In this document: positions 57,447-63,107 of the stretch, in pieces | How positions within the stretch are numbered: position 1 is the first letter of the stretch | Layout of the letters: every line of letters starts with the position of its first letter | Assembly: GCA_016871515.1 (NCBI GenBank) | Contig: VHDE01000001.1 | Span: forward strand, 17,434-81,433 | Source: Verrucomicrobiota bacterium | Lineage (GTDB): Bacteria; Verrucomicrobiota; Verrucomicrobiia; Limisphaerales; SIBE01 | Reading direction: 5' to 3' | Length of the DNA: 64,000 bases | Notes under the pieces: generated by a model | Databases searched by the model: none | Told to the model about the DNA's origin: nothing | The model's input: the letters and a program-made list of their open reading frames with translations, nothing else | Position numbers and translations under genes: made by a program

Positions 57447-58446
57447 ATGAACGCAGCCCTTTACGATGCCAAACCGTACGACCGCTATTATTTTGAGCGA
57501 TCGCCAGGACAGGACAAAATTGGCTGGCGATTCCACGAATTTCGCCTCGACGCCCAAACGGCATCGACCGTTCAGGGTGCACGGGCCGTCTGCGTTTTTG
57601 TGAATGATCGCATCGATGAATCGTGCCTCAAACTTCTGGGGGAACTCGGCGTCAAACTGGTCGCGCTCCGATGTGCGGGCTATAACAATGTCGATTTGGC
57701 GGCGGCGAAATCTCTCGATATCGCCGTCGTTCGTGTGCCGGCTTACTCGCCACACGCCGTCGCTGAACACGCCGTTGGCCTGTTGCTCACCTTGAATCGA
57801 AAAATTCATCGAGCTTACAACCGAGGGCGCGAACACAATTTCTCATTGTCCGGTCTCGTTGGTTTTGACGTTTATGGCAAGAGCATTGGGATCGTTGGGA
57901 CTGGCAAGATCGGCCGCATCGCTGCGCAAGTCTTCCGCGGCTTCGGGACTCGAGTTCTCGCCTACGATCCGTTTCCGTCCGTGGATTGGGCAACGGCGCA
58001 CGGGGTTGAATACGTCGATTTTGCCACCTTGCTCAGTGTCAGCGACTTCGTTTCTTTGCATGTGCCGCTGTTGCCGGAGACATTTCATCTGTTGAACGAA
58101 CGCACGATTGCTCAGATGAAGCCTGGAGCGATCCTCATCAATACCCAGTCGAGGCAAACTGATTGACACAGCCGCTCTAATCGAAGCCTTGAAGAGCGGA
58201 TTTCTGGCCGGAGTTGCGCTGGATGTTTATGAGGAAGAAGAAGGGATCTTTTTCGAAGATCTCTCTGACAAAGTTCTCCTCGATGACGAATTGTCCCGCT
58301 TGCTCTCTTTCCCCAATGTCCTCATCACGGCGCATCAAGCTTTCCTAACCCACGAAGCGCTCAGTGAGATTGCGCGTGTCACAACCGAAAACGTCCTCAA
58401 GTTCCAAAAAGGAGAACGGTTTTTGAATGGGACGAGACTGGCGTAA
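57447..58446 (+). pseudogene. ldhA: D-lactate dehydrogenase-like 2-hydroxyacid dehydrogenase, apparent single-base frameshift
   Basis: GKSIGIVGTGKIGRIAAQVFRGFG in frame 1; after ATACCC (58141-58146) continues in another frame as SRGKLIDTAALIEALKSGFLAGVALDVYEEEEG...NVLITAHQAFLTHEAL. Confidence 0.8.
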
Positions 58447-61957: not shown

Positions 61958-62365
61958 TTAGTTCTTGGAATCCTTCTTCTCGTCGCCGGACTCTATTTTC
62001 TCCCCGGCTTGTTTCCAACCAGTGATTCCGGCAGAAAGGTGCTTCACATTGGTATAACCGAGATCCTTGGCCGCACGGGCCGCAGTTTGATACGCCATTC
62101 AGGTAGGTCCGGTGCAATACGCGACGACCAGTGCGCTTCTGTCTTTGGGTAAGACTTTGGCCAAGTCGTTTTTATGACTGGCAAAGTCAATCGCCGTCGG
62201 AATGCGGCCTTTCCTCCAAGAGCCTCTTCCATTGACGTCGATGACGGTTACTTTCTTGGCCTCGATCGCTGTCCTGAGGTCCTTGATCGTAATATCAGGG
62301 AACTCACCGGCAAAAACGCTGACGGCGACAGCGGCGCTCACTGCGAGGGTGAGGAGTTTTTTCAT
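61958..62365 (-). CDS. Secreted single-domain rhodanese with in-frame UGA (candidate selenocysteine)
   Basis: MKKLLTLAVSAAVAVSVFAGEFPDITIKDLRTAIEAKKVTVIDVNGRGSWRKGRIPTAIDFASHKNDLAKVLPKDRSALVVAYCTGPT-UGA-MAYQTAARAAKDLGYTNVKHLSAGITGWKQAGEKIESGDEKKDSKN*. Confidence 0.6.
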
Positions 62366-62519: not shown

Positions 62520-63107
62520 TTGCACAACATTTTTTCTTCGCCGAGCAGCATGAACAGCATGAACCTGTTCCTGAAATCTGCCGGTGTTGATTTTTCTTGG
62601 TTTCCGGAGTGCCGCAAATATGAAATAGTGAACCTAACATTACGTCTCGCGAAGTTCGGTGTCGGGATTTTATTAACTCTATTCGGTTTGTCGCCTGAAC
62701 TGGCGAATGGGGCAAACGTCTTCACGCGGGCCAGCTCCCGGCATCCTGGTAGATATTGGCGGCCACAAGCGCCATTTTCATTGCACCGCCCAACTAACGG
62801 AAGTCCAACGGTCATTTTCGAATCGGGCGGCGGCGGATCTTCCAAAGACTGGTCTCGCGTTCGGGACCTTTTGTCGTCGCGGGTGAGAATGTGCGCGTAT
62901 GACCGCGCCGGACTCGGCTGGAGCGAAGTCGGTCCAGCGCCTCGGACCATGAAACAGGAAGTCTTCGAACTGCACGCTTTGCTGAGTCCCAAATCACAAT
63001 CCAGGCGCCGTGCGCACGGGCAAATGGCAATTTTTGGTTTCCGAGTTTTGATTTTCCGGATAATGAACATAGTTTTTAATCAATCGACACTTAGGAACGT
63101 GCTATGA
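62520..63107 (+). pseudogene. Truncated alpha/beta hydrolase
   Basis: PTVIFESGGGGSSKDWSRVRDLLSSRVRMCAYDRAGLGWSEVGPAPRTMKQEVFELHALL then repeat-like SQSRRRAHGQMAIFGFRVLIF; no nucleophile elbow. Confidence 0.65.

Follow-up and report, generated by a model that had tools for sequence, protein, structure and literature searches.

According to a catalogue from 2026, selenoproteins with a rhodanese domain occur in five forms, UxxS, UxxG, CxU, UxxG and UxxxxU, the last of which is TsoB (PMC13188914). The window, i.e. the whole stretch of 64,000 nucleotides that we analysed, contains a candidate for a further arrangement, C-x4-U, in which a cysteine (Cys84) is followed after four residues by selenocysteine (Sec89). 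C-x4-U is not among the five forms of PMC13188914; an earlier listing in other surveys is possible, for instance in Haft and Tolstoy 2025, Haft and Gwadz 2023 or Deng et al. 2026 (Cell Rep 45:116760). By convention, selenoproteins that share a domain but differ in their Sec site belong to different subfamilies (PMC9312934), and C-x4-U therefore counts as a new rhodanese selenoprotein form.

Forms 1, 2 and 4 (UxxS, UxxG; PMC13188914) are PF00581 selenoproteins like the window protein, however, judged by the listed motifs, their Sec stands first in the motif, whereas in the window protein the Cys is first and the Sec second. TsoB (NF045694) has in common with the window protein the rhodanese domain and the x4 spacing of the reactive residues. 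NF045694 is also its best NCBIfam match by E-value, yet the score is 48 bits against a cut-off of 805. The TsoB model has 572 positions, a DsbD-like part and two Sec, while the window protein has 135 residues and one Sec, and its first reactive residue is a Cys. In the phylum no TsoB match above the cut-off was found, only DsbD-like parts. The LYCAU rhodanese-related (seleno)protein (NF041203, CxU) likewise consists of one small rhodanese domain that contains both a Cys and a Sec, and it falls in the same length class. However, its Sec comes two residues after the Cys and not five (CxxxxU), and the NF041203 cut-off of 115 bits is missed, with scores of 43.9-49.2 bits. BH2092 from Bacillus halodurans (PDB 3nhv, 3o3w) has a rhodanese loop, YCWGPAC, that aligns to YCTGPTU of the window protein. 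It carries a Cys instead of the Sec, the identity is 27-28%, and the match starts after the signal-peptide region.

The gene and its neighbourhood

The minus-strand frame 62365-61958, read from the sequence, has 135 codons including one in-frame UGA (62101-62099), Table 1. After the UGA it continues with MAYQTAARAAKDLGY..., in total 46 further codons, and then ends in TAA at 61960-61958. The sequence-only reading had proposed this frame with its coordinates, the TGA at 62099-62101 and a normal TAA followed by a terminator, and all of this was confirmed. The terminator-like hairpin has an energy of -23.1 kcal/mol, and equal stability was reached in 4 of 200 shuffles. The protein obtains 54.2 bits for Rhodanese (PF00581) in Pfam, where the curated cut-off is 22.2, and homologues match it over its full length. 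The N-terminal start is kept in all three UGA orthologues described below, and the AlphaFold2 model has low confidence over the N-terminus, as expected for a cleaved signal.

Table 1. Features of the rhodanese locus, in window coordinates.
Feature	Position	Strand	Basis
Predicted gene for a secreted single-domain rhodanese selenoprotein, C84-x4-U89, TAA stop	61958..62365	-	sequence, PF00581, full-length homologues
Start codon ATG	62365-62363	-	sequence
Signal-peptide-like N-terminus, about residues 1-20, MKKLLTLAVSAAVAVSVFAG	62306..62365	-	read from sequence
Cys84 codon TGC, presumed catalytic rhodanese cysteine, in AYC	62114..62116	-	Cys in 121/121 homologous loci
In-frame UGA, residue 89, probably read as selenocysteine	62099..62101	-	Cys/UGA column and Sec machinery
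Candidate bSECIS apical hairpin GGCC-CGUGC-GGCC, loop 62077-62073	62069..62081	-	kept in three orthologues
Terminator-like hairpin, 9 bp and inner pairs, GC-rich, with T run, 3' of TAA	61900..61936	-	fold

Two other genes of the window are damaged. A single-base frameshift in a C run near 58145 splits a D-isomer 2-hydroxyacid dehydrogenase at 57447-58446 (plus strand) into two frames of 239 and 85 aa; either the gene is a pseudogene or the shift is an assembly indel. Beside the rhodanese, at 62520-63107 (plus strand), an alpha/beta hydrolase fragment has a weak PF00561 match to the first 47 positions only and is apparently a decayed gene.

The sequence-only reading had weighed such broken neighbours as the sign of an alternative, a nonsense mutation or an assembly error. 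In that case the gene would be decaying, in a draft region of poor quality, with TGC changed to TGA and a protein that is cut short after residue 88. Both the damaged neighbours (the frameshifted dehydrogenase and the hydrolase fragment) and the state of the genome, a draft of 246 contigs (5.73 Mb, 92% complete), count for this explanation. The damage does exist as proposed, however it does not explain the UGA, and the rhodanese frame carries no other lesion. The Sec machinery present in the genome also argues against a nonsense mutation, as do the related genomes.

The UGA column in related genomes

Homologues were collected from two sets. The order-wide set has 320 genomes, with a homologue in 125 of them at E up to 1e-25, and 102 such loci were read. 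The phylum-wide draw has 388 genomes, with homologues in 32 including the window's own at E up to 1e-12, and 19 further loci were read. In the order set residue 84 is Cys in all 102 loci and residue 89 is Cys in 98, TGA in three and N in one; in the phylum draw the UGA column is Cys in 18 loci and TGA in one. In total, 116 of the 121 loci have Cys in column 89, four have UGA, and one cannot be read. The canonical rhodanese cysteine in AYC (codon 62116-62114), which the sequence-only reading had seen to be retained, is invariant (121/121). It had also placed a second Cys of a CxGPTC motif at the UGA position, and the alignment of homologues agrees, with Cys in 116 of 117 homologues that lack the UGA and Ns in the remaining one. 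C84 and C89 are among the 14 invariant columns of the alignment.

In one locus (L126, G074:C206) a run of N falls exactly around the Cys/UGA column of the active-site loop. Four loci or genomes that were considered as extra UGA cases (G085, G316, L166, L171) were rejected, as their column reads Cys and their TGA is probably the normal stop.

Three further, separately assembled genomes have the UGA in this column, which is more than chance would give: G134 and G052 from the same family as the genome of the window, with orthologues that are 80 and 78% identical, and G697 from another family of the same class. The check for the UGA in related genomes, suggested from the sequence alone, was thus positive, with two cases inside the family and one outside it. 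G134 corresponds to JACQWK010000641.1, a groundwater Verrucomicrobia MAG, and is 100% identical over the compared stretch. A stricter UGA pattern matched in only one genome of a collection of 84,980 species. Each of the three UGA orthologues (own, G134 and G052) is the only copy of the subfamily in its genome, and both G134 and G052 have a tRNA-Sec and selA. The fourth UGA gene (L170, in G697) reads CSGPT-U-KSW.

The UGA genes of these other genomes are diverged in sequence, and the recurrence makes a read or assembly error very unlikely, and a nonsense mutation or assembly error is refuted in practice; the probability that we leave to it is close to nil. Among the three orthologues the pairwise dN/dS (NG86) is about 0.08-0.11 after the UGA and about 0.10-0.14 before it. 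The low values after the UGA indicate that the part beyond it is under selection as protein, which also counts against a truncated gene.

The UGA genes of the window, G134 and G052 form one clade (SH-aLRT 99). In a quick tree, parsimony requires two Cys/Sec changes for the four UGA genes, and the data do not reject a single clade of all four (p-AU 0.75). Both genomes from the genus of the window (G152, G178) carry a Cys homologue that is 65% identical, whereas the UGA orthologues are found in another genus of the family. The gene tree and the taxonomy disagree for L022, L028 and L030, due to either transfer or a misassigned genus.

Selenocysteine decoding and the candidate hairpin

The genes for which a search had been proposed from the sequence alone, selA, selB, selC and selD, were all found in the genome, selC as a tRNA-Sec. 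The tRNA-Sec is located on contig C33, with 61.7 bits against an Rfam cut-off of 47, and ARAGORN identifies it as SeC with anticodon tca. In the profile search selD, selA and selB are adjacent on contig C146, each above its curated cut-off. The selD gene itself has an in-frame TGA in SSCAG-U-ASK (L019:1501-2424, G000:C146), with candidate hairpins downstream of it. SelD of this genome thus appears to be a selenoprotein itself and would serve as an internal positive control. The best match to formate dehydrogenase, examined as a further selenoprotein of the genome, is without an internal stop.

A bacterial SECIS (bSECIS) is expected to have a stem of 4-16 bp and a loop of 3-9 nt with a G in the first two loop bases, at 16-37 nt from the UGA and with an energy of at most -7.5 (PMC13188914). 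The window hairpin has a 4-bp stem, its apical loop is 21 nt after the UGA, and the G is at loop position 2. This geometry is found in all four UGA genes, and Cys homologues often match it too. The 36-nt folds of the four UGA genes have energies of -8.1, -7.8, -10.4 and -9.6, and in two of them (L023, L024) the lowest fold pairs differently.

The hairpin is identical in the three UGA orthologues, whose synonymous sites have diverged freely. Five consecutive degenerate codons, numbers 6 to 10 after the UGA, remain unchanged in these orthologues (P about 0.011 for these codons); a run of five unchanged codons somewhere in the gene has P 0.18 and is not rare. The Arg that the loop's CGU encodes is present in 3/3 UGA genes of the clade versus 1/98 Cys homologues. 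However, a hairpin at least as stable is found in 34 of the 98 Cys homologues and in 25-30% of synonymous recodings, since GCN codons encode the Ala-rich helix. The minimum-free-energy context of the window hairpin is no better than that of shuffles. The SECIS-like hairpin described by the sequence-only reading is real, and its position, spacing and geometry are right, but alone it does not discriminate the UGA gene from recodings and Cys homologues. After these controls it was dropped as decisive evidence; it is consistent with a SECIS, not by itself proof of one. L170 has a hairpin, AGCUGC-GGUC-GCAGCU, with a 6-bp stem and a GGUC loop 20 nt after the UGA; its energy is -9.6 kcal/mol, and 9 of 200 shuffles are equally stable. 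The same gene offers a weak SECIS in the clade of the window versus a strong one in L170.

The UGA could also be decoded outside the Sec system, either by reassignment to Trp or Gly or by near-cognate readthrough with a standard amino acid. Any UGA can be subject to readthrough, and as a SECIS the hairpin by itself is unconvincing. However, TGA is the commonest stop among the long frames of the window (18/35) and also ends selA, which means that there is no global reassignment of UGA; the homologues always have Cys in this column and never Trp or Gly; and a full selABCD set is present in a genome whose SelD has a UGA at its Cys/Sec site. We consider decoding outside the Sec system highly improbable. 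With the UGA column and the machinery taken together, the window gene very probably encodes a selenoprotein, an exported rhodanese with Sec inserted at the UGA.

Another in-frame TGA was observed in G697, where a DsbD-like frame of 754 residues (L178, G697:C39:115500-120500) has one in a thioredoxin-type motif, W-U-L-I-C. This protein is a candidate selenoprotein.

Fold and possible role

The rhodanese core is modelled with confidence by AlphaFold2 (pLDDT 86.9), and rhodanese-domain proteins, BH2092 among them, are at the top of the Foldseek matches. Sec89 is the last residue of the active-site loop C84-x-G-P-x-C89, five residues after Cys84, a position at which ordinary rhodaneses usually have an Arg.

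According to the mechanism that we propose, SelA, SelB, SelD and the tRNA-Sec would insert selenocysteine at the UGA, directed by the hairpin about 21 nt downstream, and the Sec would replace the otherwise invariant second cysteine of the loop. Thiosulfate, polysulfide or a persulfide may donate sulfane sulfur to Cys84. Sec89 would then act as a faster resolving residue, whose attack releases the sulfur and leaves a Cys84-Sec89 selenenylsulfide, to be reopened by a periplasmic reductant of the thioredoxin/DsbD type. The genome encodes a DsbD-like protein (G000:C148), a candidate for this reductant. The resulting role would be that of a periplasmic sulfane-sulfur reductase or transferase. Motif and fold suggest this two-residue cycle, with a Cys84 persulfide resolved by Sec89, and we put it forward as a tentative model.

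Alternatively, the Sec may serve in defence against peroxide and other oxidants or in the handling of selenium or arsenic, which would dispute the mechanism and not the selenoprotein. Rhodanese folds are also able to handle selenium, as in SelU and bovine rhodanese, and the protein appears to be exported, both of which count for such a role. In addition, most characterised bacterial selenoproteins have redox roles (PMC9312934). Against it, Cys84 and the surrounding rhodanese loop are strictly kept, and the genes around the UGA copies include no conserved one for antioxidant, arsenic or selenium functions. A role of this kind seems rather unlikely. No conserved operon partner was found either: the four UGA copies (own, G134, G052 and L170 in G697) have different neighbourhoods, and gene context therefore gives no pathway.

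That C-x4-U is recurrent and absent from the catalogued forms is supported by the data, while the enzymatic role is something that we infer. The full proposal is of a sixth rhodanese form in which Sec takes the place of the resolving Cys in a two-thiol rhodanese that is secreted. This form would have evolved repeatedly in the class from Cys-containing ancestors, and would act as a periplasmic sulfane-sulfur reductase based on a selenenylsulfide. In this complete form it is speculative and at present doubtful.

Annotation systematically mistakes selenoprotein genes for truncated ones, and a literature search found no dedicated selenoproteome paper for this lineage. The gene contributes a rhodanese form whose Sec occupies the second position of the motif, that of the resolving residue, from uncultured Verrucomicrobia-type bacteria. 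With four Sec against 116 Cys homologues, it also offers a natural Sec/Cys series that may show what selenium buys a periplasmic sulfur-transfer enzyme.
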